From contig NZ_AP028070.1 of NCBI RefSeq assembly GCF_030297175.1, forward strand, positions 1,054,001-1,118,000: a stretch of 64,000 nt of DNA, written 5' to 3'. The DNA comes from Marinobacter sp. LA51 (GTDB lineage Bacteria > Pseudomonadota > Gammaproteobacteria > Pseudomonadales > Oleiphilaceae). Positions 5,338-26,102 of the stretch are shown here, in pieces (the first letter of the stretch is position 1; each line of letters begins with the position of its first letter). The notes below the pieces were generated by a model. It had not been told where the DNA came from and ran no database searches. It saw only the letters and a program-made list of their open reading frames with translations. The position numbers and the translations under genes were made by a program.

Positions 5338-5568
5338 AATCAGGATTAATACCTGCCCCTTTTTTAGTCATTTCTTTTACTTTTTTTGTAGAGTAATTTT
5401 GCAGTGTGTCACCGCACTGTAATCCTGGTTGTGTGAAAATCAATCACCGTAGACGATCGTGGCCCGCAATATGCAGTGGATATTTCCTGCGCATTTCATC
5501 AACAGAGTTTCCGCCGACAGGCTGTTAGAGCGGCTGTAGATATAGGTAATAGAGAAGGAGTTCTTCTA

Positions 5569-7107
5569 ATGGCAACATCGCAATTGAATACCGGAGAGTC
5601 GTCGTCCAAAGTTCTTGAACAGCTCCGTGGCAAGCATGTCCTGATTACCGGCACAACCGGGTTTCTGGGCAAGGTTGTGCTTGAAAAACTGATTCGGACA
5701 GTTCCAGATATCGGCGGTATTCATCTGCTGGTCCGCGGAAACAAGCGACACCCCGAAGCGAGGGCGCGATTCCTTGACGAAATTGCGACCTCGTCGGTGT
5801 TTGAGCGACTGCGCTCCGACGACAACGAGGCTTTCGAGGCCTTTGTGGAAGAGCGAGTGCACTGCGTGACCGGGGAGGTGACCGAGCCGATGTTTGGGCT
5901 GCCGGCTAACCAATTCCAGGTCCTGGCCAATGGCATTGACGCCGTGATCAACTCCGCCGCCAGCGTGAACTTCCGGGAAGAGCTGGATAAGGCCCTGGCG
6001 ATCAACACCCGTTGTCTCGATAACATTGCCGAGCTGGCTCGTCAGAACAGCCGGCTAGCGGTTCTTCAGGTCTCGACCTGCTACGTGAATGGCATGAACT
6101 CCGGGCAAGTGTCCGAAGAGGTGGTCAAGCCGGCGGGCGAGGCTCTGCCGCGCAGTGTCGATGGCCACTACGAGATTGACGAACTGGTGCGTTTGCTGGA
6201 CGACAAGATTGCTGACGTACGCTCACGCTACTCTGGCAAGGCACTGGAGAAGAAGCTGATAGACCTTGGTATCCGGGAAGCAAACCGATACGGCTGGAGC
6301 GACACATACACGTTCACCAAATGGCTCGGTGAGCAGCTTTTGATGAAGGCGCTGGCTGGCCGATCGTTGACTATTGTCCGTCCCTCCATTATCGAAAGTG
6401 CCCTGGAAGAGCCCGCACCTGGCTGGATTGAAGGGGTGAAAGTGGCCGATGCCATTATCCTCGCCTACGCGCGGGAAAAGGTAACCCTGTTCCCCGGCAA
6501 GCGCTCCGGTGTCATTGATGTGATTCCGGTGGATCTGGTGGCAAACAGTATCATTCTGTCATTGGCCGAGGCACTGTCAGAGCCTGCTGATCAACGCATT
6601 TACCAATGCTGCAGCGGTAGCAGTAATCCGATCTCGCTCGGGGAATTCATTGATCACCTGATGGTCGAAGCCAAGGCCAGTTACGCGGACTATGACCAGC
6701 TGTTCTATCGTCAGCCCACCAAGCCGTTCGTTGCCGTGAATCGAAAGCTGTTCGATGCCGTGGTTGGTGGTGTACGCATTCCGTTGAGTTTGACCAGCCG
6801 GATTCTCAAGATTCTGGGCCACAATCGTGAGCTGAAGGCGTTAAGAAACCTTGATACCACTCGCTCGCTGGCCACGATTTTCGGCTTCTACACGGCGCCG
6901 GATTATGTTTTTCAGAACGATGCTCTGTTGGCCCTGTCGTCCCGGATGGGCGGACTGGATCGCGTGTTGTTCCCGGTTGATGCCCGTCAGATCGATTGGA
7001 GTGTCTACCTGCGCAAGATTCATCTGGCCGGCCTGAACCGCTACGCGTTGAAAGAGCGCAAGTTGTACAGTCTACGCTCTGCTAAAACCCGCAAGAAAGC
7101 GGCGTAA
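5569..7107 (+). CDS. Alcohol-forming fatty acyl-CoA reductase
   Basis: Reduces fatty acyl-CoA (or acyl-ACP) to fatty alcohol with NADPH, the first committed step of wax-ester synthesis. The 512 residues carry the extended-SDR nucleotide motif GTTGFLG at 28-34, the catalytic YxxxK as YTFTK at 247-251, and the C-terminal sterile domain typical of FARs. Over long stretches it recalls the characterised 513-residue Marinobacter FAR (Maqu_2220 type; from memory). The start is the ATG at 5569, which has an AGAAGGAG ribosome-binding site; the reading frame stays open 31 codons further upstream without one. The gene stands alone: no wax-ester synthase is in the window. Confidence 0.93.
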   Translation: MATSQLNTGESSSKVLEQLRGKHVLITGTTGFLGKVVLEKLIRTVPDIGGIHLLVRGNKRHPEARARFLDEIATSSVFERLRSDDNEAFEAFVEERVHCVTGEVTEPMFGLPANQFQVLANGIDAVINSAASVNFREELDKALAINTRCLDNIAELARQNSRLAVLQVSTCYVNGMNSGQVSEEVVKPAGEALPRSVDGHYEIDELVRLLDDKIADVRSRYSGKALEKKLIDLGIREANRYGWSDTYTFTKWLGEQLLMKALAGRSLTIVRPSIIESALEEPAPGWIEGVKVADAIILAYAREKVTLFPGKRSGVIDVIPVDLVANSIILSLAEALSEPADQRIYQCCSGSSNPISLGEFIDHLMVEAKASYADYDQLFYRQPTKPFVAVNRKLFDAVVGGVRIPLSLTSRILKILGHNRELKALRNLDTTRSLATIFGFYTAPDYVFQNDALLALSSRMGGLDRVLFPVDARQIDWSVYLRKIHLAGLNRYALKERKLYSLRSAKTRKKAA

Positions 7108-7453
7108 TACCACTGCCATCGTGAGTTGGCCCGCCTGGGCCGGCTCGCGCATTTCTGCTTTTTTATTCTCGTTGTTGACTGGCTTCGGCTGGGGTTGCGA
7201 ACAGTCTCGTTCTGTCTATTCTTAAAGGTATTTCTCGTCCAGTGAGCCTGTCCGCTTCGTGCCTGTGGCGGCTCGCGACAGTTAATAGGTACCTGCATCA
7301 AAAGTTCAGACACATTAGGACGTTAGTCTAATTAATTGTTCAGTCGAACCCGTGTTGTACTACAGACATTCGTCTTACTTCAGGCCCGAGCTGGCCGCAC
7401 CGCTCTTTTTTCCATTTCGACAATGACAATAGACTCTGAAAAGGGGGAGCACC
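7108..7453. other. 346-base intergenic region upstream of acs
   Basis: No gene seen. It holds the 3' flank of the FAR gene (a weak GC-rich hairpin GGCCC/GGGCC near 7122-7140) and the promoter region of acs. Around 7314-7333 there is an imperfect dyad ATTAGGAC-GTT-AGTCTAAT followed by an AT-rich stretch, a possible regulator site. A strong ribosome-binding site AAGGGGGAG precedes the acs start. Confidence 0.4.
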
Positions 7454-9403
7454 ATGACTGAGAAACACGTCTTTCCAGTAGAGCCGGAGGTAGCCCAACG
7501 GGCTCTGGTAAATCGGGAGCAGTACAACGCAATGTACCGCGAGTCGATTGAGAATCCCGATGCGTTCTGGTCAGAGCACGGCAAGCGCCTGGAGTGGATC
7601 AAGCCCTACACCAAGGTAAAGAACACCACCTACGATTTCGATAATTTGTCCATCAAGTGGTTTGAAGACGGCGAGCTGAACGCCTCTGCCAACTGTCTTG
7701 ATCGTCACCTTGAGAAAAAAGGAGACCAGACCGCCATCATCTTCGAAGGTGATGATCCGGCAGATTCCCGCCATGTGACCTACCGTGAGCTTCACGAGGA
7801 AACCAGCAAGTTTGCCAACGTTCTCAAGGGGCTGGGTGTAAAGAAGGGCGATGTTGTCACCATCTACATGCCGATGATTGTTGAAACGGCGGTCGCCATG
7901 CTTGCCTGCGCTCGCATCGGTGCAATTCATTCTGTGGTTTTCGGCGGCTTCTCGCCCGAGGCCCTGGGTGCCCGCATTGTTAACGGCAACTCCCGGTTCG
8001 TGGTCACGGCCGATGAAGGGGTTCGTGGCGGCCGCAAGATTCCGCTGAAGAAAAACGTCAATGCGGCCCTGAAAATCGACGGCGCCGATGCGGTGGAAAA
8101 AGTGGTAGTGGTTACCCGCACCGGTAATTCCGAGGTGCCCTGGGGCGATAGCCGCGATGTGAAGTACGAAGATCTCATGCAGTCTGCCTCGGCAGATTGC
8201 CCGCCCGAGCCGATGAACGCGGAAGACCCGCTGTTCATGCTGTATACCTCGGGTTCCACCGGCGCGCCTAAGGGTGTGTTGCACACCACCGGTGGCTACA
8301 TGGTGTACGCGTCGATGACGCACGAGTACGTCTTCGACTATCACGACGGTGACGTTTACTGGTGCACCGCCGACTTTGGCTGGGTGACCGGTCATAGCTA
8401 CATTCTTTATGGCCCGCTGGCCAATGGTGCCATCACCGTGCTGTTCGAGGGTGTGCCCAACTACCCGGACAGCTCCCGGATGGGGCAGGTGGTCGACAAG
8501 CACCAGGTCAACATCCTGTACACGGCGCCCACTGCCATCCGGGCCCTGATGGCCGAAGGTGCGTCGTGCATGGACGGCACCAAGCGCGACAGTCTGAAGC
8601 TGCTGGGTTCCGTTGGTGAGCCGATCAACCCGGAAGCCTGGGAGTGGTACCACCGAGTTATTGGCAACAGCAAATGCCCGATTGTGGATACCTGGTGGCA
8701 GACCGAAACCGGTGGCATCCTGATTTCGCCGCTGCCGGGCGCTACCGATCTTAAGCCTGGTTCGGCGACGGTGCCGTTCTTCGGTGTTCAGCCGGCGCTG
8801 GTCGATAACGATGGCAACATCCTGGAAGGCAAGACCGAGGGCAACCTGGTGATCATGGATAGCTGGCCGGGGCAGATGCGCACCATTTACGGTGATCATG
8901 AGCGCTTCAAGCAGACTTACTTCAGCACGTACAAGGGCCGGTATTTCACCGGTGACGGCGCGCGCCGTGATGAAGACGGGTACTACTGGATTACAGGCCG
9001 TGTCGATGACGTTCTGAACGTGTCCGGTCACCGCTTGGGTACGGCGGAAGTCGAAAGTGCGCTGGTCGCCCATAACAAGGTTGCTGAGGCCGCCGTGGTT
9101 GGCTTCCCTCACGACATCAAGGGGCAGGGCATCTATGTCTATGTCACTCTGGTGCAGGGCGAAGAACCGTCCGATGAGCTGAAGAAAGAGTTGGTGCAAT
9201 GGGTGCGCAAGGAAATTGGTCCGATCGCCTCGCCGGATGTGATTCAATGGGCACCTGGACTGCCCAAGACTCGTTCAGGCAAGATTATGCGTCGGATTTT
9301 GCGTAAAATTGCTGCCAACGAGCACGATCAGCTTGGCGATACGTCCACCCTGGCAGACCCAGGTGTGGTTGATGAGCTGATCAGCAGTCGTGAATTTAAA
9401 TAA
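7454..9403 (+). CDS. acs: Acetyl-CoA synthetase
   Basis: AMP-forming acetate activation: acetate + ATP + CoA to acetyl-CoA, for growth on acetate or on ethanol-derived acetate. At 649 residues it has the standard length. The adenylation motif [11 protein letters not shown] starts at residue 264, and the C-terminal [12 protein letters not shown] places the regulatory lysine at K610, the residue acetylated by Pat-type acetyltransferases in well-studied Acs enzymes. The next gene, 41 bases downstream, is a LuxR-type response regulator, as in pseudomonads where ErdR controls acsA. Confidence 0.97.
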
Positions 9404-9444
9404 GGTCGCATCCAAGACCGTAACCCTGTTAAGGAATCTGTTGA

Positions 9445-10110
9445 ATGGCACAAACAATTATCGTCGCTGATGATCACCCGTTGTTTCGCGCAGCATTGAA
9501 GCAGGCGGTCAGTCAGGCGGTGCCCGATGCCGAGACGGTTGAAGTCGATAGCATCAAGGCTCTGCAGGCGGCGGTAGAGTCGCACCCGGATGCGGATCTG
9601 GTCTTGCTGGATCTGAACATGCCGGGTGCCCACGGCTTCTCCGGGCTGGTGTTCATGCGCGGACAGTACCCGGGATTGCCGGTGGTGGTTGTGTCAGGCT
9701 CGGAGGAGTTGCAGGTCATGCGCCGCTCGATCGACTACGGGGCGTCCGGGTTCATTCCCAAGTCGGCGCCACTGCCCACCATCACCGAGGCTATTCAGGA
9801 CGTTCTGGAAGGGGATGTCTGGCTGCCAGACGGCGTGGCAGACAAGATTGAGCGCATGCACTCAGACGCCACGGATTTTTCCGAGAAGTTGGCGTCGCTG
9901 ACACCGCAGCAGTTCCGGGTGTTGGGCATGTTGGCGGAAGGGCTTCTGAACAAGCAGATCGCTTACGATCTGGATGTGTCTGAGGCCACCATCAAGGCTC
10001 ACATCACCGCGGTATTCCGCAAGCTGGGGGTTCGTAACCGGACTCAGGCGGTCATTGCGATTCAGCAGATGGAGATCGATCCTTCGGATCAGTCACTGTC
10101 TGGCAGTTGA
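9445..10110 (+). CDS. LuxR-family response regulator, ErdR-like
   Basis: 221 residues: an N-terminal receiver domain (DD at 11-12, phospho-acceptor D56 in LLDLNMPG, conserved K in IPKSAP) followed by a LuxR/FixJ helix-turn-helix (roughly 150-212, LTPQQFRVLGMLAEGLLNKQ). Position directly behind acs matches the neighbourhood of ErdR in Pseudomonas, a regulator of acetate and ethanol oxidation genes, so control of acs is the likely role (inference from context). No partner kinase is adjacent. A strong intrinsic terminator follows. Confidence 0.88.
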   Translation: MAQTIIVADDHPLFRAALKQAVSQAVPDAETVEVDSIKALQAAVESHPDADLVLLDLNMPGAHGFSGLVFMRGQYPGLPVVVVSGSEELQVMRRSIDYGASGFIPKSAPLPTITEAIQDVLEGDVWLPDGVADKIERMHSDATDFSEKLASLTPQQFRVLGMLAEGLLNKQIAYDLDVSEATIKAHITAVFRKLGVRNRTQAVIAIQQMEIDPSDQSLSGS

Positions 10111-14873: not shown

Positions 14874-16028
14874 TCAGCCGGTCAGGCGATTGCAAATAGC
14901 AACACCGATCTCATGGGTGCCACGTTGGCTGCCAGCGTTCTCGGCCAGGTCAGCAGCCACTGCATCGAACAATTCCTTTCCGGCCGCCGCCAGGGTCGGG
15001 TCTTTCCGGCCCAGCCATTCCAGCATACGCGCCGTGGTGAACAGCATGGCGGTTGGGTCAGCAAGTCCCTGGCTGGCAATGTCCGGCGCACTGCCGTGGG
15101 TCGGTTCGAACATGGAGGGCATGTTCGGATCGGTCGGATTCAGGTTGCACGACGGTGCCACCCCCATGCCGCCGGATAATACCGCGGCGAGGTCGGTCAG
15201 GATGTCACCTTGAAGGTTACTGGCAACCACCACATCAAACGCCCAGGGGCTTTGCACGAACTTCATGCAGGCGGCATCCACCAGCTCGTGGTGGACGGCC
15301 ACATCGGGATACTCTTCACTGATCGCCTCGAACGCCTCGGTATACATGTCGCCCCAGTGCCGAAGCGCATTGCGCTTGGTGACCAGGCATACCTGACTTT
15401 CACAGGTGCGGCCATCGAGTGTGCGAAAGGTTCGTGTCCGGCCCTCTTTCACTCGCTCAGCAGCCCGGTTCCTGGCCTGCTCGAAGCCATAGCGGATAAT
15501 CCGGTTAGTGGCTTTGCGGGTGAACACTTCCATCTGGGTAGCGACTTCATCCTCGGTGCCTTTACGCAGCCGGCCGCCCTGGCTGACGTACTCGCCTTCG
15601 GAGTTCTCGCGAATCACCAGCATGTCGATGTCTTTGGCTCGCTCGTCGGCCAGGTATTGACGGGCGCCTGGCAGGAGCCGGGCAGGGCGTTCACAGACCC
15701 ACTGGTCAAAGCCCTTGCGCATCTCCAGTAGGGGCGCCAGCGAGACGCTGTCAGAGAGCAGATAGCGCTCTGCATCGTCGATCGGGCCCGGGTCGCCCAG
15801 CGCTCCCAGCAAAATCGCGTCGTAAGCCTGGAGTTGTGCGAGGGCGTCTTCAGGCATGGATTCGCCGTGTTCCTCGTGCCAGGCATGGGACGGCCAGGGG
15901 AACCGGGTCCACTCTACCGCCAGGCCGTGTTTTGCGCGCAGAGTTTCCAGGCAACGGACGGCTTCACCCACTACTTCCGGACCAATGCCATCACCGGGGG
16001 TGACTGCGATGCGGGTTGTTTCAGCCAT
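14874..16028 (-). CDS. Tartrate/D-malate/isopropylmalate-family dehydrogenase
   Basis: 384 residues of the NAD-dependent beta-decarboxylating dehydrogenase family. The N terminus has TPGDGIGPE; RENSEGEY and the metal-site region (VVASNLQGDILTDLAAVLSG) are typical, and EPTHGSAPDIA is the adenosine-binding loop. RENSEGEY and the absence of a leucine operon favour the tartrate/D-malate dehydrogenase subgroup over LeuB, but this is not decided. No transporter or regulator for such acids is adjacent. Confidence 0.85.
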   Translation of the reverse strand: MAETTRIAVTPGDGIGPEVVGEAVRCLETLRAKHGLAVEWTRFPWPSHAWHEEHGESMPEDALAQLQAYDAILLGALGDPGPIDDAERYLLSDSVSLAPLLEMRKGFDQWVCERPARLLPGARQYLADERAKDIDMLVIRENSEGEYVSQGGRLRKGTEDEVATQMEVFTRKATNRIIRYGFEQARNRAAERVKEGRTRTFRTLDGRTCESQVCLVTKRNALRHWGDMYTEAFEAISEEYPDVAVHHELVDAACMKFVQSPWAFDVVVASNLQGDILTDLAAVLSGGMGVAPSCNLNPTDPNMPSMFEPTHGSAPDIASQGLADPTAMLFTTARMLEWLGRKDPTLAAAGKELFDAVAADLAENAGSQRGTHEIGVAICNRLTG

Positions 16029-16291: not shown

Positions 16292-16648
16292 TTGCTGTAT
16301 CGCATTATTACGTTTATCGGTGGCCTCGTTTTCGTGGTGGCGCTTTTTGCTCTGCTGTGGTTCTTCTGCAAGAAATTTCTTGAGCGCCACGGAGTGACCG
16401 ATCAGGTTTCAGATCGTGCCACGGTGTTGGCCACGTGGACTTTTGCTGGTATCAGCGTGGGGCTGATTTTTGCGGTCGTTGGTGCCTTCGTACTGGGGCC
16501 TTGGGCGTTCTATCGGACGCTACGCGGCCACGACGTCAACATCTCTGATGGCGCCGCTATCTGGTGGGGGTTTGGCATTGTGGTGGCGGCGATGACCATA
16601 ACCGGGTTGGGCTTTTTCGGCTTTCTGATGGCCGTGGGCGCCTATTAG
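16292..16648 (+). CDS. Small three-helix membrane protein
   Basis: About 118 residues if translation begins at the TTG at 16292, with AGGACAGGG in front; an earlier in-frame TTG at 16205 would add 29 residues of unlikely leader. Three hydrophobic stretches (residues about 4-26, 48-71 and 90-116) are likely membrane spans. I do not recognise the family. Its stop overlaps by 4 bases the stop of the convergent amidase gene. Confidence 0.55.
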   Translation: MLYRIITFIGGLVFVVALFALLWFFCKKFLERHGVTDQVSDRATVLATWTFAGISVGLIFAVVGAFVLGPWAFYRTLRGHDVNISDGAAIWWGFGIVVAAMTITGLGFFGFLMAVGAY

Positions 16649-17490
16649 AGCGCCGGTCCATTAGTCCCGGTGCGATAAGTCAGCTGTTCGGCGTCCCGGT
16701 GGGTGGGGAGGTCGAAACGGGCCCTGGCAATCTCCTGGCGCGACAGCTCGGCGACAATCAGAGTTTGTTTGTCTTCGGCTTTTGCCAGCGTTTCTCCGCG
16801 TGGCCCCAGGATGCTGGATCCGCCCCAGAACCATCCGTCGCCCTCATGGCCGTAGCGGTTAGCCATGACCACGGGGGTGCCGTAGGTCATCGCATAAAAC
16901 TGCAGATTGACCAGCCAATTGTTCTCGTTCGAGAACGACTTGCTGACGATGCCAGATGCCGAATTGATGGGAGCGCACAGCACCGCGGGGCGGTTCATCA
17001 AGCCACTGTGCACTAGCCCCGGGTTCCAGAGGTCAGCGCAAATCAGGTAGTGAGCCGGCCAGCCCGGGCTGACGTCACGCTGGGTCAGGGATTGGCCGGG
17101 TGTGAACCACTTGCCTTCCTCCAGGCCACCGTAGGTGGGCAGATTCAGTTTGCGGTGAATGGCGATCACCCGACCGCCCTGCAGGATCGCAAGGGCGTTG
17201 TAATATTCCCCCGGACTGGCTTCCTCAACAAAGCCAACCACCACCTGCAAGCGCCCCGAGAGTTGTGCCAGCTCTTGCAGGGTTTCGTCGTCTGCCGGCA
17301 TGGCAACATCAGGAACCCCTCGGCCCAGGGCGTAGCCCGTCAGCGACAGTTCCGGGAATACCAGCAGATCCAGCGCCCGCTCTTGTGCCTCAGCGATCAT
17401 CTTGCGATGGGTTTCGAGATTGCTGGCCACCGCGCCGAGTTCACAATTAATTTGGGCCGCGCCGACACGTAGCTGATCTGTTGGACGCAT
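16645..17490 (-). CDS. Carbon-nitrogen hydrolase (nitrilase superfamily)
   Basis: 281 residues. The Glu-Lys-Cys triad of the superfamily is present as E47 (FPELSLTGY), K114 (HRKLNLP) and C151 (ICADLWNP). It hydrolyses an amide or carbamoyl group; the specific substrate is unknown. It ends 117 bases before the osmoprotectant transporter operon's 3' end, on the same strand, but the hairpin between them suggests it is transcribed separately. Confidence 0.85.
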   Translation of the reverse strand: MRPTDQLRVGAAQINCELGAVASNLETHRKMIAEAQERALDLLVFPELSLTGYALGRGVPDVAMPADDETLQELAQLSGRLQVVVGFVEEASPGEYYNALAILQGGRVIAIHRKLNLPTYGGLEEGKWFTPGQSLTQRDVSPGWPAHYLICADLWNPGLVHSGLMNRPAVLCAPINSASGIVSKSFSNENNWLVNLQFYAMTYGTPVVMANRYGHEGDGWFWGGSSILGPRGETLAKAEDKQTLIVAELSRQEIARARFDLPTHRDAEQLTYRTGTNGPAL

Positions 17491-17607: not shown

Positions 17608-18489
17608 TTAGATCAAGTTGTGTTCTTTCAGGAAGTTCCTGGCGACCTTTTCAATGGTCTGACGGTCAACGTCTACCCGGGCGTTCAGAGTGGCCATGGT
17701 TTGGTCATCCAGCAGGCTGGAAAGGGCATTCATCTGTTCGTCCAGCTTCTCATGCTTCTCCAGAGTTTCCTCACGCACAACCGGTGTCAGGGCGTAGGCC
17801 GGGAAATACTGCTTGTTGTCTTCCAGTACGACAAAATCGAAGGCCTTGATGCGGCCGTCGGTGGCAAATACCAGACCGACTTCAACCTGGCCGTCGCGCA
17901 GGGCGTTATAGACCAGCCCTGAATCCATCCGCTTGATGTTCTCGCGGCCAAACCGGAAGTCATAGGCTTGCTGCAGCGGGCGAAGGCCGTCTTCACGGGC
18001 GTAGAACTCGGCGTTGCTGGCGAAGCTGAGTTCTTTGCCGTCATTTACGGCTTGGGCCAGGTCTGAAAGCGTCTCAATGCCGCGCTCTTTTGCGTCCTTG
18101 GCACGCATGGCAAAGGCATAGGTGTTGTTGGCGTTCGATGGCTCAAGCCACACCAGTCCTTTCTCTTTATCCAATTCTTTGACGCGCTTGTAGGTAGCTT
18201 CTGGGCCGAGCTCCTCGGTGATGTCGTTGTAGTTGATCAGCGAGGTGCCAGTGTATTCCCAGTAGAGATCAATCTGGCCGTTCTCCTGTGCCTGGCGCAG
18301 GACCGCAGAGCCCATGCCGGATTTCTTTTCCACATCGTACTCGAGGGCTTCGAGATATTGAGCGGTCATGCTCGCCAGAATCTGCTGCTCGGTGAAGTTC
18401 TTGCCACCGACCACGATGGATTCGGCTTGAACCGTGGTGCTGACGGCAAGGGCCAACAGGCCCGTTAGCAAAGTGCGAATCTTGTTCAT
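17608..18489 (-). CDS. Osmoprotectant ABC transporter substrate-binding protein (OsmF/OpuCC type)
   Basis: 293 residues with a signal peptide (cut near TVQAES). The mature protein starts with VVGGKNFTEQQILA, the hallmark of the OpuAC/OsmF quaternary-amine-binding family, and WEYTGTSLINY is also typical. It binds glycine betaine, choline or a related zwitterion in the periplasm. It is the last gene of the four-gene operon, with 31 bases to the upstream permease. Confidence 0.9.
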   Translation of the reverse strand: MNKIRTLLTGLLALAVSTTVQAESIVVGGKNFTEQQILASMTAQYLEALEYDVEKKSGMGSAVLRQAQENGQIDLYWEYTGTSLINYNDITEELGPEATYKRVKELDKEKGLVWLEPSNANNTYAFAMRAKDAKERGIETLSDLAQAVNDGKELSFASNAEFYAREDGLRPLQQAYDFRFGRENIKRMDSGLVYNALRDGQVEVGLVFATDGRIKAFDFVVLEDNKQYFPAYALTPVVREETLEKHEKLDEQMNALSSLLDDQTMATLNARVDVDRQTIEKVARNFLKEHNLI

Positions 18490-18519: not shown

Positions 18520-19251
18520 TCAGCCGCGTGAGGGGTTAACCTCACGTGGGACAACGACGAATGCCAGCGAGGCGATAAATGCGTCAACAACCACCGCAAG
18601 TACTGCGGTTGGTATGGCGCCTGCCAGCATCATCAGTGGGTCGTACAGGTCGATACCGGTGAATATCAGTTCGCCCAGTCCGCCGGCGCCAATCAGGAAG
18701 GCGAGGGGGACGGTACCGACGTTGATGGTCAGGGCGGTGCGCATGCCTGCAAAAATGACGTACAGCGCATTCGGCAGCTCCACCCGGATGAGTCTTTGGA
18801 ATGCCGACATGCCCAACCCCGAGGCAGCCTCCAGCAGGGCCGGAGACACGCCCTTGAGACCCGCATAGGTGTTGCGGGTGATTGGCAGCAGGGTCGCGAC
18901 GAACAGCCCGAACACCGCCGGCAGCGTACCAATTCCGAGCAGGCTCATGGACAGTGCGAGCACCGCCAGCGTTGGGATGGTCGTGCCCACGTTCAGCACT
19001 TGCATGAGGGGCTCGGCGTAGTTGGACATCGCGGGCCTGGACAAGAGAATGCCCAGGGGAATCGCTACGAGAATGGCCAGGCCGCCAGACACTGCAGTCA
19101 GCCATACATGCTGTCCCGTCAGGTAGCGGATGTCAGGCCAATAAAACAGGAAGTCGTCGACCAGCCCACTCGACTGACTCCAGACCCCAAGCGCAAACAC
19201 GCCCAGCAGAATCAGCCAGCGACTCATGGTGACCAGTTTCAGGTTCGCCAT
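18520..19251 (-). CDS. Osmoprotectant ABC transporter permease (OpuCB/YehY type)
   Basis: 243 residues, a BPD_transp_1 permease with an N-terminal membrane anchor and five further spans; the EAA-like loop ALLEAASGLGMSAFQRL is clear. Its start is 4 bases after the ATPase gene stop, so it is translationally coupled. It pairs with the second permease at 20453-21142. Confidence 0.9.
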   Translation of the reverse strand: MANLKLVTMSRWLILLGVFALGVWSQSSGLVDDFLFYWPDIRYLTGQHVWLTAVSGGLAILVAIPLGILLSRPAMSNYAEPLMQVLNVGTTIPTLAVLALSMSLLGIGTLPAVFGLFVATLLPITRNTYAGLKGVSPALLEAASGLGMSAFQRLIRVELPNALYVIFAGMRTALTINVGTVPLAFLIGAGGLGELIFTGIDLYDPLMMLAGAIPTAVLAVVVDAFIASLAFVVVPREVNPSRG

Positions 19252-19254
19252 GAA

Positions 19255-20412
19255 TTACTCCTTGTGACTCGCTTCAAGAGGTGTCGAATGGGTAGCCGCA
19301 CGGTATCGGGCTCCCAGATGATGGGTGATCGCGCGTTGTGTGATCTGCCCACGAAGGCTGCCGCTGTCATCGACGCAGGCAACCCAGGTCATGTCATGGG
19401 CAAACATCAGGGAAGCGACCTTCCTCAGGTCATCGTCCAGGCCGACCACCGTGGACAGGCTTTCGAAGTGATCCCGGCAGTAGCCTTTGGTGGTCTGGGC
19501 GACGGAGCGACGAACCTGCCCCACCGGCTGGCCTTCGGCATTCACCATGACAATGCAGTTCTGATAACCGTAATCGTCGATCTTCTGCTGGGCTGTCTGC
19601 AGGGTGTCATCCGGGCGAACAACGCCTATGTTGTCACTCGCCAGCTCTTTGACTTTCACCAGGTTGAGACGTTTCAGGGCGCGATCTTCACCCAGGAACG
19701 ATTCGACGAACGAGTTTTTCGGCGCCGCGAGCAGCTCATCCGGCGCAGAGTGCTGAACCAGCTTGCCCTCGCGGAAGATTGCGATGCGGTCGGCCATCTT
19801 GATGGCTTCATCAATGTCATGGCTGACGAAGAGAATGGTCTTCTTCAGTTCGGCCTGCATCTTCAGGAATTCCTCCTGGATGCTGGCGCGGTTGATCGGG
19901 TCGATCGCGCCGAAAGGCTCGTCCATCAGCATCACGGGGGGATCGGCCGCCAGGGCACGGGCGACACCAATGCGCTGCTGTTGACCTCCGGAAAGTTCGC
20001 TTGGATAACGCTTCAGGAAGGCGTCTGCGTCGAGGGAGACCATGTCCATCATTTCGCGGGCGCGCTTTTTGAACGCGGCTTTGTCCCATCCCAGCAGCTT
20101 GGGCACGACGGTGATGTTTTCCTCGATCGTCATGTTAGGAAACAGGCCAATCTGCTGGATGACGTAGCCAATATTCCGCCGCAGGTCCTGAGTGTTGAGC
20201 TGGGTGGTGTCTTCGCCATTGATGATCACCTTGCCGGATGTCGGCTGAACAATGCGGTTGATCATCTTCAGGGTTGTGGTCTTGCCGCAACCGGACGGAC
20301 CCAGAAGCACGCAGATTTCGCCTTCGGGTACCGACATGCTGATGTTGTCGGCGGCGGTAACCGCCCCTTTGGGCGTATCGAAGATTTTCGTAAGCTTATC
20401 CAGTTCGATCAT
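19255..20412 (-). CDS. Osmoprotectant ABC transporter ATPase with CBS pair (OpuCA/ProV type)
   Basis: 385 residues. The ABC domain has Walker A GPSGCGKTT, signature LSGGQQQR and Walker B VMLMDEPFGAID. The last 130 residues form two CBS domains, which in OpuA/OpuC sense ionic strength or cyclic-di-AMP. It powers uptake through the two permeases of this operon. Confidence 0.93.
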   Translation of the reverse strand: MIELDKLTKIFDTPKGAVTAADNISMSVPEGEICVLLGPSGCGKTTTLKMINRIVQPTSGKVIINGEDTTQLNTQDLRRNIGYVIQQIGLFPNMTIEENITVVPKLLGWDKAAFKKRAREMMDMVSLDADAFLKRYPSELSGGQQQRIGVARALAADPPVMLMDEPFGAIDPINRASIQEEFLKMQAELKKTILFVSHDIDEAIKMADRIAIFREGKLVQHSAPDELLAAPKNSFVESFLGEDRALKRLNLVKVKELASDNIGVVRPDDTLQTAQQKIDDYGYQNCIVMVNAEGQPVGQVRRSVAQTTKGYCRDHFESLSTVVGLDDDLRKVASLMFAHDMTWVACVDDSGSLRGQITQRAITHHLGARYRAATHSTPLEASHKE

Positions 20413-20452: not shown

Positions 20453-21142
20453 TCACGGGGTGTTGGCCGCGTCCAGATCCATGCCTTTGGGTGTCAGTCG
20501 CCGCTGAGCGATCAGCAGCCCGTAGTCGACGATGATGGCAAGCAGGCTCACGGCAATGGCGCCGATAATGAGCTGGCGAGGGTCAGACTGGGAAATGCCA
20601 CGGCTGATGAAGGTGCCCAGTCCGCCCGCTCCGATGTAGGCGGCAATAGCCATTACCCCAATGTTCAGCACCACGGCGGTGCGGACGCCGGCCATGATGA
20701 CAGGCACCGCGAGAGGTATTTCGACCAGCCGGAGCCGCTGGTTTCCGCTCATGCCAATGCCCCTCGCGGCTTCTCGCAATGCCGGATCAACATTGTTAAT
20801 GGCCGTGTAGGTGTTGCGGATGATGGGCAGTTGGGAATACAGCAGCACGGCGATCACGGCCGGAAAGTAGCCGATGCCCTGGCCAATTAACGACAGTACC
20901 GGAATCATCAGGCCGAACAGTGCGATCGACGGGATGGTGACAATAATGGACGCAACATACAGGACGATCCGGGCCATCCGTTCGTTCTTGGTGATCGCGA
21001 TCCCGATAGGTACGCCGGTGAGCGTCGCGAGACCGACAGCGACCCCTACCAGTGCTATGTGCTCCAGGGTGCGAGTGGTCAGTATGTCCAGATTGTCCAG
21101 GGCGTATTGGGCTAACTCCACGACACGGGGCTCCTCAATCAA
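20453..21142 (-). CDS. Osmoprotectant ABC transporter permease (OpuCD/YehW type)
   Basis: 229 residues, six predicted membrane spans, with the EAA-like loop ALREAARGIGMSGNQRL. It is the first gene of the transporter operon, preceded by a 235-base AT-rich promoter region and, beyond that, the LysR gene on the same strand. Confidence 0.9.
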   Translation of the reverse strand: MIEEPRVVELAQYALDNLDILTTRTLEHIALVGVAVGLATLTGVPIGIAITKNERMARIVLYVASIIVTIPSIALFGLMIPVLSLIGQGIGYFPAVIAVLLYSQLPIIRNTYTAINNVDPALREAARGIGMSGNQRLRLVEIPLAVPVIMAGVRTAVVLNIGVMAIAAYIGAGGLGTFISRGISQSDPRQLIIGAIAVSLLAIIVDYGLLIAQRRLTPKGMDLDAANTP

Positions 21143-21377: not shown

Positions 21378-22286
21378 TTATGGTGATGGTGAAGCTTCCT
21401 CCTCGTACTTTTCCGCCAAATCCTCCAGTGACGCGAAGGATTCTGCGCCGGTAACCACGTCTTCCAGGTCGGCGCAAAATGCCTCGTAGGCTTCACTGGA
21501 GTAACTGGGTGAGCGGTGCAACTCGATTTCAACCTGACCCAGCGGCGGCAAGCCCTCGTGCTCCTCCACTATTCGGCAGCCTTCCGGGAGGCTGCGCGGC
21601 GTCTTGATGGTGAGTGCCAGGCCGGATTGAACAGGCAGATTCAGACCCGTTGGCGAGTAGCTGGTGAAGCGGACATTCCAGCGCAAGCCCGCGAGACCCA
21701 GTGCAGCAACAGCGTGGGCCCGGTACACGCAGCCTTCGGGGTTCAGCGCTAGGGGCAGGGGATTCCAGCCGGCTATGCTCACGCCTTTGCCGGCGGCCCA
21801 CACCAGGGATTCCACGCCGATCAATTGGCCGGTCTGTGTTGGCGTGTGGCGAATGGCGAGCACCACATCCAGCAGCCCTTCCTGAAACGAATCCACCATC
21901 CGTGAGCTGACGCCACAGGTGATCTCCAGGCGCACCTGCGGATACCGAGTACAGAACCGTTTCAGCAATTGCGGTAAATACGTGGTCGCCTGTTCCTCGG
22001 AAATTCCGAGCCGGATCAGCTCGCCCTGATGGTCGGCGCCCATCTCCTGTTTTGCTTCGTCTTCCAGCTTGAGGATATGGCGCGCGTAAGGCAGCAACCG
22101 TCGCCCCGCGTTAGTCAGGGTCACCGTCCTGCGAGTGCGCTCAAGCAGGGCGTCGCCCATCTGATCTTCCAGTCGTTTGACCTGAAGACTGACCGCCGAC
22201 TGGGTGCGGTGAAGTAGCTTGGCCGCGGCACTAAAGCCCTGGGCTTCGGCCACGGTGACAAAGGTGCGAAGAAGCTGAGTATCCAT
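21378..22286 (-). CDS. LysR-family regulator divergent from the oxygenase operon
   Basis: 302 residues. The winged helix-turn-helix occupies residues 1-60 (MDTQLLRTFVTVAEAQGFSA), followed by the effector-binding domain. I use the ATG at 22286; the frame is open 11 codons further without support. An acidic, Glu-rich tail closes the protein. Only 109 bases separate it from the divergent oxygenase operon, the classical LysR arrangement, so it most likely controls that operon, and perhaps the transporter on its other side. Confidence 0.88.
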   Translation of the reverse strand: MDTQLLRTFVTVAEAQGFSAAAKLLHRTQSAVSLQVKRLEDQMGDALLERTRRTVTLTNAGRRLLPYARHILKLEDEAKQEMGADHQGELIRLGISEEQATTYLPQLLKRFCTRYPQVRLEITCGVSSRMVDSFQEGLLDVVLAIRHTPTQTGQLIGVESLVWAAGKGVSIAGWNPLPLALNPEGCVYRAHAVAALGLAGLRWNVRFTSYSPTGLNLPVQSGLALTIKTPRSLPEGCRIVEEHEGLPPLGQVEIELHRSPSYSSEAYEAFCADLEDVVTGAESFASLEDLAEKYEEEASPSP

Positions 22287-22311
22287 ATGTATGAGAATCT
22301 GAAATCGAATG

Positions 22312-22342
22312 CATGGCAACTATTTATTTAACTCATGGTAAC
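22312..22342. promoter_or_regulatory. Direct repeats CATGGYAAC, candidate LysR site
   Basis: CATGGCAAC at 22312-22320 and CATGGTAAC at 22334-22342 are 22 bases apart, about two helical turns, inside the short divergent region between the LysR gene and the oxygenase gene. Confidence 0.38.
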
Positions 22343-22395
22343 AAGCTCTCTAGGATATGGCCATTCGCTCAACGCCACCAACAGGAGAGGTGACC

Positions 22396-23277
22396 ATGCA
22401 TACCCAGGATGCCGAAGCTATCCGCGAGGCGCTCGGAGGAGTCGTTAATCTGGAGCGCTATCCGATCGATCAGATCGATTCGACCACGGGGGAAGCCCTG
22501 ATTGAACGGTGCCGTGCACAGCTTGATGACGACGGCTGTGTCGTTCTCGATGGTTTTATCCGGGACGAAGCGCTGGCGCGTCTGGAGCCGGAAACCGAGC
22601 GTCTGTCGCCGGAAGCGCACTACAACCAGACCGAAACCAACCCCTACAACAATGCTGGCGATGACAGTCTGCCCGACAGCCATCCCATGAACCGGTTTGA
22701 TGACCGTACCAACGGTTTTGTCGCCGGTGACCGCATCGGTCAGGACACCATCATCCGGCAGGTCTATCAGAACCCGGCGTTCCAATCGTTCATTGCCCGC
22801 GTGGTGGGGATGGAGTCAATCCACCCTTACGCCGACCCGCTCGCCGATCTGGTGGTCAACGTCCTGCGCGATGGTTGTCAGCATCCATGGCATTACGACA
22901 CCAACGAATTCATCGTCACCCTGATGACTCGCAAGTCCGAGGGCGGCGGCCAGTTCCAGTACGTGCCGGGCATTCGCAGCGAAGCCGGTGAGAACTTTGA
23001 AGGGGTTCAGGAAGTACTGGACGGCAACCACGAGTCGGTGAAATCCCTGGAGTTGACACCGGGCGACCTGCAGATCTTTTTCGGTCGCTACTCCCTGCAC
23101 CGGGTCAAGCCGGTTGAAGGACCGCGCGAACGTCACACCGTGATCTTCGCTTACGCCAAGGAGCCGGGTTTTATCGGTCGCCCCGAGCGGGCCCAGCGGA
23201 TCTTTGGCCGTATGGCGCCGATCCACGAAGAGATTCTCAAGCACGGGCTTGAGCGCAACGACAACCTGGCCGACTAA
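22396..23277 (+). CDS. Fe(II)/2-oxoglutarate-dependent oxygenase (ArpA / HalD-BesD-like)
   Basis: 293 residues with a double-stranded beta-helix core. The iron facial triad can be read as H166 and D168 in HYDTNEF, with the distal His H235 in SLHRVKP and a probable 2-oxoglutarate Arg at R246. It resembles the family that also holds the free-amino-acid halogenases HalD/BesD, but those have Gly in place of the Asp; here Asp is retained, so hydroxylation or oxidative C-N or C-S cleavage is expected rather than chlorination. The start is the ATG at 22396 with AGGAGAGG upstream. It heads a three-gene operon. Confidence 0.8.
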   Translation: MHTQDAEAIREALGGVVNLERYPIDQIDSTTGEALIERCRAQLDDDGCVVLDGFIRDEALARLEPETERLSPEAHYNQTETNPYNNAGDDSLPDSHPMNRFDDRTNGFVAGDRIGQDTIIRQVYQNPAFQSFIARVVGMESIHPYADPLADLVVNVLRDGCQHPWHYDTNEFIVTLMTRKSEGGGQFQYVPGIRSEAGENFEGVQEVLDGNHESVKSLELTPGDLQIFFGRYSLHRVKPVEGPRERHTVIFAYAKEPGFIGRPERAQRIFGRMAPIHEEILKHGLERNDNLAD

Positions 23278-23300
23278 GCCATCCTGATAGGAGGAATTTT

Positions 23301-24584
23301 ATGAGCCTGGTAGAAACCCAGCCGCTTACCGACAATGAGCCGAACACCATACCGGTGGTTCCCTCGGCACCGATGGCTAACGGCGACAGCATTCCGACGG
23401 CATTCGATCCCAAGCAGCTCCGGGCTGGCCGTCTGGAACGCCTGCGCAACATGATGCGCGAACAGGGCTATGCCGCGGTCGTGCTGTTCGACCCGTACAA
23501 CCAGCGTTATGCCACTGGCTCGCGCAACATGTTCGGGTACTTCCTGCGCAACTCTTCCCGCTACATCTATGTGCCTCTTGAAGGCCCTGTGATTCTGTTT
23601 GAATACCCGGGCAGTGCCCACGTTTCCACCTGGCTTGAGACCATCGACGAGTCACGCACCTCGCAGGTGGTGTGGTCCGCGGTGAACCAGCGTGATGGCA
23701 TGTCCAGCGATCCGTTCGGTGTGGAAATTGCCGAACTGGTGGCGGAGCACGGTCGCGGTAACAAGAAAGTCGGTCTGGACCGGTGTGCATTGAACCTTGC
23801 CCGCTCTCTGGAAGCCCAAGACCTGGAAGTATTCGACTGCATGCAGGACATCCTGCATTGCCGCCGGATCAAGACCCCCGAAGAAATCGCCTGTCTGGCG
23901 CAGTCGATGGCGGGTAGTGAAGCGGCAGTCGCACGTGTTGAGCAGGCTATCCGCCCAGGGATCACCGAGAACGAATTGTTCGCCGAGCTTTATGGTGAGG
24001 TGATCCGTCAGGGCGGTGAGTTTATTGAAACCCGCCTGCTGTCGTCTGGCCCCCGCACCAACCCCTGGTTCAACGAAGCCAGTGACCGGGTGCTGCGCCC
24101 GGGCGAACTGGTGGCGCTGGATACCGACACCATCGGCGTGCACGGCTACTACTCGGACTTCTCCCGTACCTTCCACGTAGGGCCGGGCAAGCCGACGCCA
24201 TACCAGCAAAGCCTTTACCAGATGGCGTATGAGCAGGTTCATCACAACATGAGTCTGTTGGGGCCGGGCATCGAGTACCGGGAAATTGCCGAGAAGGCCT
24301 GGAAAATCCCCGAGCGTTTCCTGAACCGTCGTTACCCCTCGATCATCCACGGGGTTGGCATGCACGGTGAAACGCCGCTGGTCGCCCATCACATGGACTT
24401 CGATCGCTTTTCCAAAGACGGCGTACTGGAGCCGGGAATGGTGGTATCGGTCGAGAGCTACATCGGGGAAGAGGGCGCCGCTGACGGCGTCAAGCTCGAG
24501 GAAGAAGTGGTGATCACCGAGACCGGGGTCGAGAAGCTCTCCCGCTATCCATTCGATGCAGGCCTGCTTGGCCAGTCCAGCTAA
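23301..24584 (+). CDS. DddP-like M24 metallopeptidase-family protein, catalytic Asp missing
   Basis: 427 residues of the creatinase/aminopeptidase P fold, close to the DMSP lyase DddP. The ligands of the binuclear metal site can be placed with constant spacing relative to DddP (from memory D295, D297, D307, H371, E406, E421): D274, D276, D286, H350, E385, E400. The active-site Tyr366 has a counterpart Y345. The base Asp377 corresponds to G356, with E357 next to it. So the fold and metal site are kept but the lyase base is not; DMSP lyase activity is doubtful. A strong AGGAGGA ribosome-binding site precedes the ATG. It follows the oxygenase by 23 bases and precedes the semialdehyde dehydrogenase by 24. 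Confidence 0.82.
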   Translation: MSLVETQPLTDNEPNTIPVVPSAPMANGDSIPTAFDPKQLRAGRLERLRNMMREQGYAAVVLFDPYNQRYATGSRNMFGYFLRNSSRYIYVPLEGPVILFEYPGSAHVSTWLETIDESRTSQVVWSAVNQRDGMSSDPFGVEIAELVAEHGRGNKKVGLDRCALNLARSLEAQDLEVFDCMQDILHCRRIKTPEEIACLAQSMAGSEAAVARVEQAIRPGITENELFAELYGEVIRQGGEFIETRLLSSGPRTNPWFNEASDRVLRPGELVALDTDTIGVHGYYSDFSRTFHVGPGKPTPYQQSLYQMAYEQVHHNMSLLGPGIEYREIAEKAWKIPERFLNRRYPSIIHGVGMHGETPLVAHHMDFDRFSKDGVLEPGMVVSVESYIGEEGAADGVKLEEEVVITETGVEKLSRYPFDAGLLGQSS

Positions 24585-24608
24585 AGATCAACTAAGGATC
24601 AAGACATT

Positions 24609-26102
24609 ATGACACTGGTTGAACACCGTATCGCCGGCGAGAAAGTCGCCGGCCCGCGCACAATTGACGTTGAAAACCCCGCCACCGCCGAGGCTGTCCG
24701 ACAGGTCGGCCTGGCGGACCGTGCCCAGGTGCAGCGCACTATCGCGGCGGCGCAGGACGCGCTGCCAGCCTGGCGCGATACCCCGGCGGCCAAGCGTGCC
24801 CAGGTGATGTTCCGTTTTAAGATGTTGCTGGAACGCGACGCCGATGCGATCGTCGCGCTGCTCAGTGAGGAGCACGGCAAGACCCTTGAGGACGCCATGG
24901 GCGAGCTCAAGCGTGGTATCGAAAATGTGGAATACGCCTGTGGTGTGCCTGAGCTGTTGAAAGGGGAATACTCCCACAACGCCGGTCCCGGCATCGATAC
25001 CTTTTCAAACCACCAGCCGTTGGGCGTGGTTGCGGGTATTACCCCGTTTAACTTCCCAGCCATGGTTCCTTTGTGGATGTTTCCGATGGCGATTGCCTGC
25101 GGTAACGCGTTCATTCTGAAGCCTTCAGAGCAGACCCCTTCGGCGGCTGTAAAAATGGCGGACTTGCTGGAAGAGGCCGGCTTGCCAAAAGGCGTATTTA
25201 ACGTACTGCACGGTGACCCGGAAGCGGTTGAGGCATTGATCGAGGATCCGGCCGTTCGCGCTCTCAGCTTCGTCGGCTCTACCCCCGTGGCGCGCAAGAT
25301 CTACGAGGGCGGCGCCAATCACGGCAAGCGGGTACAGGCGCTTGGTGGCGCCAAGAACCACGCGGTTGTGATGCCCGACGCCGACCTGGAAAATGCCGCC
25401 AACACCCTGATAGGCGCGGCCTTTGGCAGTGCCGGTGAGCGCTGCATGGCAATCTCTGTGGCCGTCTGTGTTGGCGACGATACCGCGGATACCCTGGTGC
25501 AAAAGGTGGCCGAGAAGGCATCAAACCTGCGCGTTGGGCCGGGTACAGAACTCGGGCACGATATGGGTGCCCTGGTGAACGCCAGTCACCGGGACAAAGT
25601 GGCCGGGTACATTGATCTGGGTGAGCAGGCCGGCGCTGAGCTGTTGCTGGACGGGCGAAAGCATCCGCTGGTGCAAGAGTCTGCCGGCTATTACGTTGGG
25701 CCTACGCTGTTTGACCGGGTAACCGAAGACATGTCGATCTACCGCGATGAGATCTTCGGTCCGGTGCTGTGTGTGGTTCGGGTTAAAAACCTGGACGAGG
25801 CCATCGCCCTGATTAACCGCCACCAATATGGCAACGGCACCTGCGTGTTTACCTCCGGTGGTGAAGCCGCGCGTCGGTTTACCGACCGTATCGAAGTCGG
25901 CATGGTTGGCGTCAACGTACCCTTGCCGGTTCCGGTCGCGTTCCACAGCTTCGGCGGCTGGAAGGACTCGCTGTTCGGGGATCTGCACGCCTATGGTCCG
26001 GACGCGGTGCGTTTTTACACCCGCCGTAAGGCGATTTCCTATCGCTGGCCGGAATCTGGCAGCCAAGAGGGCTCACAGATGGCCTTCCCGTCAGGAAGCT
26101 AA
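24609..26102 (+). CDS. mmsA: CoA-acylating (methyl)malonate-semialdehyde dehydrogenase
   Basis: 497 residues, aldehyde dehydrogenase superfamily. The nucleophile is C279 in GERCMA; NHQPLGVVAGITPFNFPAM and GSTPVARKIYEGG are characteristic of the MmsA group, which converts malonate or methylmalonate semialdehyde to acetyl-CoA or propionyl-CoA. DddC of DMSP catabolism belongs to the same group. Being last in the operon, it probably finishes the pathway by turning a three-carbon semialdehyde into an acyl-CoA (inference). Confidence 0.9.
   Translation: MTLVEHRIAGEKVAGPRTIDVENPATAEAVRQVGLADRAQVQRTIAAAQDALPAWRDTPAAKRAQVMFRFKMLLERDADAIVALLSEEHGKTLEDAMGELKRGIENVEYACGVPELLKGEYSHNAGPGIDTFSNHQPLGVVAGITPFNFPAMVPLWMFPMAIACGNAFILKPSEQTPSAAVKMADLLEEAGLPKGVFNVLHGDPEAVEALIEDPAVRALSFVGSTPVARKIYEGGANHGKRVQALGGAKNHAVVMPDADLENAANTLIGAAFGSAGERCMAISVAVCVGDDTADTLVQKVAEKASNLRVGPGTELGHDMGALVNASHRDKVAGYIDLGEQAGAELLLDGRKHPLVQESAGYYVGPTLFDRVTEDMSIYRDEIFGPVLCVVRVKNLDEAIALINRHQYGNGTCVFTSGGEAARRFTDRIEVGMVGVNVPLPVPVAFHSFGGWKDSLFGDLHAYGPDAVRFYTRRKAISYRWPESGSQEGSQMAFPSGS

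Follow-up and report, generated by a model that had tools for sequence, protein, structure and literature searches.

The window analysed here is a 64,000-nucleotide stretch of the Marinobacter sp. LA51 genome (positions 1054001-1118000 of a single 3.77-Mb contig). On its plus strand lie three genes for an Fe(II)/2-oxoglutarate (2OG) oxygenase (OXY, 22396..23277), a DddP-like metalloenzyme that is not DddP (M24, 23301..24584), and a CoA-acylating (methyl)malonate-semialdehyde dehydrogenase (MMSA, 24609..26102). The minus strand carries an OpuC-type importer with its periplasmic binding protein (SBP) and an amidase of the nitrilase superfamily (CNH). The adjacency of OXY and M24, together with co-occurrence across 151 genomes, leads to the well-supported conclusion that importer, amidase, OXY, and M24 form one accessory catabolic module. 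In our favoured reading, the trio, the importer, and CNH serve the import of a zwitterionic betaine-like compound and its breakdown by the chemistry proposed below. We hold this reading as a whole with moderate confidence. Its module and substrate class are highly probable; the exact order of reactions is tentative. No published account of the gene cluster was found in the open-licence PMC literature.

The OXY neighbourhood was compared across genomes. A search of genome contigs gave 576 confirmed OXY relatives, the best 80 of which were kept as loci and split by OXY identity into 32 close loci (at least 60%) and 48 loci below 60%. M24 directly follows OXY in 32/32 close loci, with gaps of 13-296 bp; in the close relatives examined, the pairing is without exception. 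A LysR gene is divergent from OXY in 31/32. The exception is L040 (Litchfieldella), where an ABC (ATP-binding cassette) operon, branched-chain-type by eye, sits between LysR and OXY (5038-10000) and apparently represents another importer type associated with OXY-M24. In 19 of the 32 close loci, MMSA lies no more than 6 kb from OXY, and CNH, SBP, or a permease is found inside the 10-kb flank in 18, some contigs ending earlier. Below 60% OXY identity, M24 follows in 16/48 loci and LysR in 15/48; MMSA (at the required score), CNH, and the importer are present in 0/48. The trio proposed in a sequence-only reading of this DNA is thus found elsewhere, the OXY-M24 pair in every close locus and the dehydrogenase nearby in 19.

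OXY is carried by 12/369 genomes of the class (E<=1e-20) and, within the family to which the window belongs, by 3/101 (E<=1e-30), both counts including the window's genome; therefore, the module is accessory. The other two family members have OXY proteins of 73% and 45% identity. The 73% locus (L160, genome G778) has the full set, CNH-PrpD-SBP-permease-ATPase-permease-LysR divergent from OXY-M24-MMSA. Unlike L160, the window has no PrpD gene between CNH and SBP.

Co-occurrence was assessed in 151 Halomonadaceae-type genomes, with hits counted at E<=1e-100 for OXY, E<=1e-60 for CNH, and E<=1e-70 for SBP (strong SBP, E<=1e-100). OXY was found in 52 genomes, CNH in 53, and SBP in 57. Strong SBP and CNH were each present in 51/52 OXY-positive and 2/99 OXY-negative genomes; importer and CNH are inherited together with OXY. 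The best SBP shares a contig with OXY in 44/51 genomes; the distance is at most 10 kb in 19 genomes, at most 30 kb in 40, and at most 50 kb in 43. An MmgE/PrpD gene (at least 64% identity) occurs in 32/52 OXY-positive vs 0/99 OXY-negative genomes; G657 has a PrpD hit of 47%. Therefore, importer, amidase, and PrpD are tied to OXY even where they are not adjacent to it.

OXY matches the Pfam family HalD (PF23169) with 66.2 bits, over the gathering cut-off of 26, and has no NCBIfam match. Its AlphaFold2 model (mean pLDDT 90.7) was searched with Foldseek. The first 41 rows were all HalD, HalB, HalA, BesD, or the lysine hydroxylase Hydrox (E 2e-16 to 9e-12), at only 15-19% identity, and the next row reached only 1e-9. 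The match to 7u6h had an E of 2e-16 and a TM of 0.60-0.64 by query length. In radical halogenases of the HalD type, Gly or Ala replaces the Asp iron ligand. The OXY facial triad H179, D181, and H248 (numbered from the ATG at 22357) is invariant in 100/100 homologues, and R259 is kept in 99/100. The abstract of PMC10187165 states that the carboxylate ligand is lost. Because the HxD triad is invariant, OXY should be of the hydroxylase type, and assignment as a halogenase was rejected. Assignment as a lysine hydroxylase was also rejected. BesD is described in PMC13244439 as binding the lysine amine by acidic residues, D143 with D239 and E123. Of these three residues, D143 alone was compared, placed on the OXY motif by our own mapping; the position is Thr in OXY, and T 92, S 4, N 3, and G 1 in 100 homologues, with no Asp. 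OXY thus shares with the HalD/BesD/Hydrox family its nearest fold and a Pfam score over the cut-off; it differs in its HxD hydroxylase site, its low identity, the absence of Asp at the tested amine-binding place, and its betaine-type importer and amidase partners.

Seven actinomycete loci (L071, L073, L088, L089, L096, L101, and L106) carry an OXY homologue of 44-48% identity at most one gene away from a gene that clusters with Carn_acyltransf; two of the seven are near-identical, and only the L089 copy was scanned. In three of them, a 276-281-aa protein lies between, and Pfam gave nothing at 1e-5 for the L088 copy. These loci could conceivably encode a bacterial hydroxylase that acts on a carnitine-type compound.

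The M24 protein (Pfam Peptidase_M24 and Creatinase_N) had been read as close to the dimethylsulfoniopropionate (DMSP) lyase DddP. The likeness stands at the superfamily level, as M24 is 37-40% identical to five DddP proteins, but M24 is not DddP. On the NCBIfam DddP model NF043017 it scored 310.5 bits, under the cut-off of 600; five relatives from one other family, used as positive controls, scored 706-818 bits, and L128 scored 569. The metal ligands D274/D276, D286, H350, E385, and E400 are kept in 103/103 sequences, a set that contains a few loci twice. M24 has HG where DddP has C376-D377. The Asp377 position is Gly in 63/63 sequences of at least 60% identity, Gly in 22 and Asp in 12 at 40-59%, and Asp in 6/6 under 40%. 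The counterpart of DddP Tyr366 is retained as Y345. PMC4108388 describes Tyr366 and Asp377 as invariant in DddP lyases; Asp377 is the base proposed for DMSP cleavage. A quick tree was built from 43 of these 103 sequences. In it, DddP and the M24 group are separated by a branch with an SH-aLRT of 98; long-branch warnings concerned other rows. M24 therefore shares with DddP the fold, the metal ligands, the RTNPW motif, and the Tyr366 equivalent; it differs in the missing Asp377, a score about half the cut-off, its place across a supported branch, and its partnership with an oxygenase and an amidase. Since M24 is not DddP and lacks the proposed DMSP-cleavage base, a sulphonium substrate has no special support. 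The earlier proposal of an osmolyte-degradation unit holds as to one catabolic unit, conserved elsewhere and tied to a betaine-type importer, and is weakened as to a sulphonium compound.

Peptidases of the M24 family carry an HGxGH motif with a second His. Plasmid records label proteins of the M24 branch 'Xaa-Pro peptidase family'. A peptidase reading of M24 is not favoured; M24 shares the DddP-type RTNPW motif and has Met at the second His of HGxGH. On the ectoine-hydrolase models NF038259 and TIGR02993, M24 scored 46.4 of 575 and 33.4 of 613 bits, respectively.

The transporter beyond the LysR gene is complete, as the sequence-only reading had it. Two permeases, an ATPase, and an OpuAC-family binding protein form one OpuC/OpuB-type operon on the minus strand. 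Permease 1 (20453..21142) matches Pfam BPD_transp_1; the ATPase (19255..20412) was recognised by Walker and LSGGQ motifs in its translation and is conserved alongside the permeases; permease 2 (18520..19251) clusters with permease 1 and is conserved in related loci; SBP (17608..18489) matches Pfam OpuAC with 225 bits. By name, the PDB relatives of SBP bind choline, betaine, carnitine, or ergothioneine, or are sensors derived from proteins of that kind. Its conserved aromatic residues, K30, and R165 are compatible with a betaine-class ligand. This comparison was made with ProX residues, and the residues of SBP singled out no substrate. The window importer thus shares gene content and binding-protein family with OpuB/OpuC/OsmF importers; it differs in the score of SBP, 193 bits against an OsmF equivalog cut-off of 400, and in its linkage with a degradation module. 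OpuAC proteins number three in the genome.

CNH (16645..17490, minus strand; Pfam CN_hydrolase, 117 bits) lies 117 bp beyond SBP on the same strand and went unmentioned in the earlier reading. At E<=1e-15, it has three relatives in the PDB, which comprise a NAD synthetase and N-carbamoylputrescine amidohydrolases. An isochorismatase-fold gene in the related Sinorhizobium cluster has N-carbamoylsarcosine amidohydrolase and biuret hydrolase among 12 weak PDB hits. Together, these relatives suggest amide or carbamoyl hydrolysis. The PDB relatives of PrpD are IRG1/cis-aconitate decarboxylase and IDS epimerase, and the co-occurrence of CNH and MmgE/PrpD with OXY points to an amide-type step. A second CNH (54-59%) is present in 19/151 genomes of the Halomonadaceae-type set. 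In seven second-CNH regions (L169, L170, L172, L173, L175, L176, and L177), it is accompanied by a second SBP of about 60% identity and a 650-739-aa protein, a CocE/NonD-type hydrolase by eye; four of the seven have PrpD too.

MMSA (Aldedh) scored 665.7 bits on TIGR01722, over the cut-off of 448.5, and its PDB relatives are 5tjr and 4zz7. Three methylmalonate-semialdehyde dehydrogenase copies in the genome exceed the family cut-off, MMSA among them; therefore, MMSA is probably dedicated to the trio operon. MMSA shares with MmsA, DddC, and IolA the score on this model; it differs in being one of three copies, in an operon without an alcohol dehydrogenase. A three-carbon-semialdehyde end, as proposed before, is plausible but not general, because MMSA is near OXY in only 19/32 close relatives.

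Related clusters in other bacteria link the same parts. In Roseibium (L059), OXY-M24-SBP-permease-ATPase-permease-PrpD run on a single strand, and L057 and L058 have OXY-M24-CNH runs. Permeases 67-72% identical to permease 1 are found in Roseibium, Sinorhizobium, Shinella, and Paracoccus clusters, and the importer subfamily is shared with rhizobial and Paracoccus clusters (SBP 51-65%). Sinorhizobium meliloti pSymA and a Shinella plasmid each carry an M24 gene (63-65% identity), then genes for an isochorismatase-fold hydrolase and for an importer of this subfamily; its permease is 70-72% identical, and its SBP 54-56%, or 51% for a second Shinella SBP. The M24-isochorismatase-importer run recurs at a third locus, Sinorhizobium K101. 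The pSymA and Shinella clusters adjoin genes for an MttB-family methyltransferase, a GlxA-family regulator, and an FAD oxidoreductase; the S. meliloti regulator is GbdR-like (291 of 480 bits for GbdR), and the Shinella cluster additionally has sarcosine oxidase genes. In two Paracoccus plasmids, CNH (43-45%) comes after the importer. Genes for acyl-CoA dehydrogenase, CoA ligase, and MmgE/PrpD are also present in one of them; the second instead has a gene for a GbcA-like Rieske oxygenase (527 of 670 bits). The importer-CNH run of Shinella HZN7 has no such betaine-type neighbour within 9 kb, by annotation. We name a betaine-class substrate because related clusters in Sinorhizobium, Shinella, and Paracoccus adjoin genes of the betaine-demethylation type.

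A second OXY-M24 clade (group B; OXY 44-46%; L082, L083, L091, L095, L097, and L098) has TG or NG in place of the HG of M24. Representatives that were scanned variously adjoin genes for BCCT transporters, OpuAC binding proteins, enolase-superfamily proteins, and aldehyde dehydrogenases. Both clades are co-resident in two Chromohalobacter assemblies. On one Klebsiella and one Pantoea plasmid (L028 and L029), an OXY homologue of 36-37% identity has as neighbours a DUF2817 gene and a gene for a binding protein of the amino-acid type; on the Pantoea plasmid, an adjacent gene set with an ABC importer is annotated as urea carboxylase.

The proposed pathway would begin with import of a betaine-like compound by the OpuC system. 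OXY would hydroxylate a carbon beside a heteroatom (N, possibly O), and the two-metal M24 would cleave the carbon-heteroatom bond of the hydroxylated product, the OXY-M24 pair acting as an oxidative dealkylation. CNH would hydrolyse the released amide. Where MMSA is present, malonate or methylmalonate semialdehyde may be converted to acetyl- or propionyl-CoA. The two gene runs of the window have no alcohol dehydrogenase, which fits an aldehyde appearing directly from the cleavage. By analogy, OXY and M24 may be paired like the two halves of peptide amidation, hydroxylation beside nitrogen being followed by cleavage to an amide and an aldehyde, with CNH and MMSA using the fragments. Such an undescribed route for an amide-bearing, betaine-type osmolyte is a speculative variant, on balance doubtful.

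Several observations weigh against the betaine-module reading. The co-occurrence statistic (Fisher's exact p = 1e-36) is uncorrected for kinship. G955 has OXY without SBP or CNH, G876 (a partial CNH hit) and G975 have SBP and CNH without OXY, and G856, G857, G872, and G873 have weaker SBP hits without OXY. MMSA is not near OXY in 13/32 close loci, and the dehydrogenase was not seen beside the rhizobial or Paracoccus clusters. M24 is present at the three rhizobial plasmid loci tested, yet OXY is absent from the surrounding 9 kb or so. The CNH step is argued from enzyme families only. The Marinobacter genome has no MttB-family protein and no GbcA above cut-off; therefore, neither of these two routes could demethylate any glycine betaine set free here, and glycine betaine as a product degraded here is unsupported.

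Other explanations were weighed against the same data. Cleavage of DMSP or another sulphonium compound by M24 as a DddP-type lyase, with MMSA in the DddC role, draws on the 37-40% identity to DddP, the common RTNPW and metal-site motifs, and the resemblance of MMSA to PDB 4zz7, which we take to be DddC of a DMSP degrader. The DddP model score set against its controls, the Gly at Asp377 in all 63 sequences of at least 60% identity, and the branch between the two groups led us to reject it, and DMSP requires no OXY step; it is the least credible of the explanations considered. A guanidino, ureido, or cyclic-amidine zwitterion, creatine- or ectoine-like, from which M24 and the amidohydrolase would strip an amidine or carbamoyl group, is unlikely. 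Creatinase and DoeA are M24-type proteins and were among the M24 search hits, N-carbamoylputrescine amidohydrolase is a PDB relative of CNH, the weak hits of the rhizobial isochorismatase-fold counterpart include N-carbamoylsarcosine amidohydrolase, and on one Pantoea vagans plasmid an OXY homologue adjoins a gene set annotated as urea carboxylase. Creatinase and DoeA have lost the metal ligands, however, whereas M24 retains them, and M24 is far from the ectoine-hydrolase models (46 of 575 and 33 of 613 bits).

A carnitine-family substrate is a little less probable still. OXY would then be a gamma-butyrobetaine- or trimethyllysine-type hydroxylase and M24 would act on the hydroxylated product, in keeping with the carnitine/choline O-acyltransferase-type gene beside the OXY homologue at the seven actinomycete loci and with the BCCT transporters beside several group-B pairs; yet the amidase is left without explanation, and the close clusters showed no gene recognised as a known one for carnitine degradation, though no gene-by-gene search was made. 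Halophiles live alongside algae rich in betaine lipids. A betaine-lipid head group (glyceryl-trimethylhomoserine, or the hydroxymethyl-trimethyl-beta-alanine of DGTA), whose ether OXY would open before M24 removed trimethylamine to leave methylmalonate semialdehyde, fits on paper with a 2OG ether cleavage, a DddP-like elimination, and MMSA. No sequence evidence points there, and CNH and PrpD would have no role; we regard it as improbable. Membership of OXY in the lysine/ornithine halogenase-hydroxylase family proper, making a hydroxy amino acid for a natural product, would agree with its nearest folds. This is very improbable given the identity of 15-19%, the Thr at the BesD D143 position, the catabolic neighbours, and the betaine-type importer. 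There is a similarly small chance that the importer is an unrelated osmoprotectant system merely adjoining the trio. The best SBP is 10-30 kb from OXY in 21/51 genomes and farther away or on another contig in 11/51, but its presence in 51/52 vs 2/99 genomes argues against this, as do the clusters that link the importer independently to OXY-M24 in Roseibium and to M24 in Sinorhizobium and Shinella.

In the window, the trio lies where it was first placed and is closely spaced, as first described, with 23 bp between OXY and M24 and 24 bp between M24 and MMSA, and the family assignments are backed by Pfam and TIGR01722. An OXY start at 22396 is a better choice than the ATG upstream, at 22357, since AGGAG directly precedes 22396 and homologues L030 and L043 have Met at the matching place. 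The divergent LysR gene is present as reported (LysR1, 21378..22319, minus strand; Pfam HTH_1 and LysR_substrate), with an internal ATG at about 22286 as an alternative possible start, and LysR1 probably controls the divergent operons. The LysR1-OXY intergenic region (22287..22395) was compared with 11 relatives by eye, without statistics. An AT-rich element, ATTCATTTnnATTATG, is exact in 6/11, and the window has only a looser form of it; CTGTCCAG occurs in 7/11. Beyond CNH lies a tartrate/isopropylmalate dehydrogenase-like gene (14874-16028; 341 of 470 bits for tartrate dehydrogenase), which did not cluster with genes of related loci.

Ectoine degradation uses EctD, the M24 protein DoeA, DoeB, and DoeC, together with an importer. 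The window module shares this general logic of importer, 2OG hydroxylase, M24 hydrolase, amide hydrolysis, and semialdehyde dehydrogenase. It differs in that M24 falls far under both ectoine-hydrolase cut-offs and the other enzymes come from other families. OXY is carried by about one third of the Halomonadaceae-type genomes searched (52/151), nearly always with the importer and amidase, and is scattered in other bacteria. If the betaine-module reading is true, it would bring a catabolic role to a 2OG fold family in which the titles of the solved members name lysine, ornithine, or glycine as the bound molecule, and the non-DddP branch of DddP-like enzymes would gain a function. The module may also lead to an organic-nitrogen compound that halophilic, marine, and plant-associated bacteria use and that has been overlooked.

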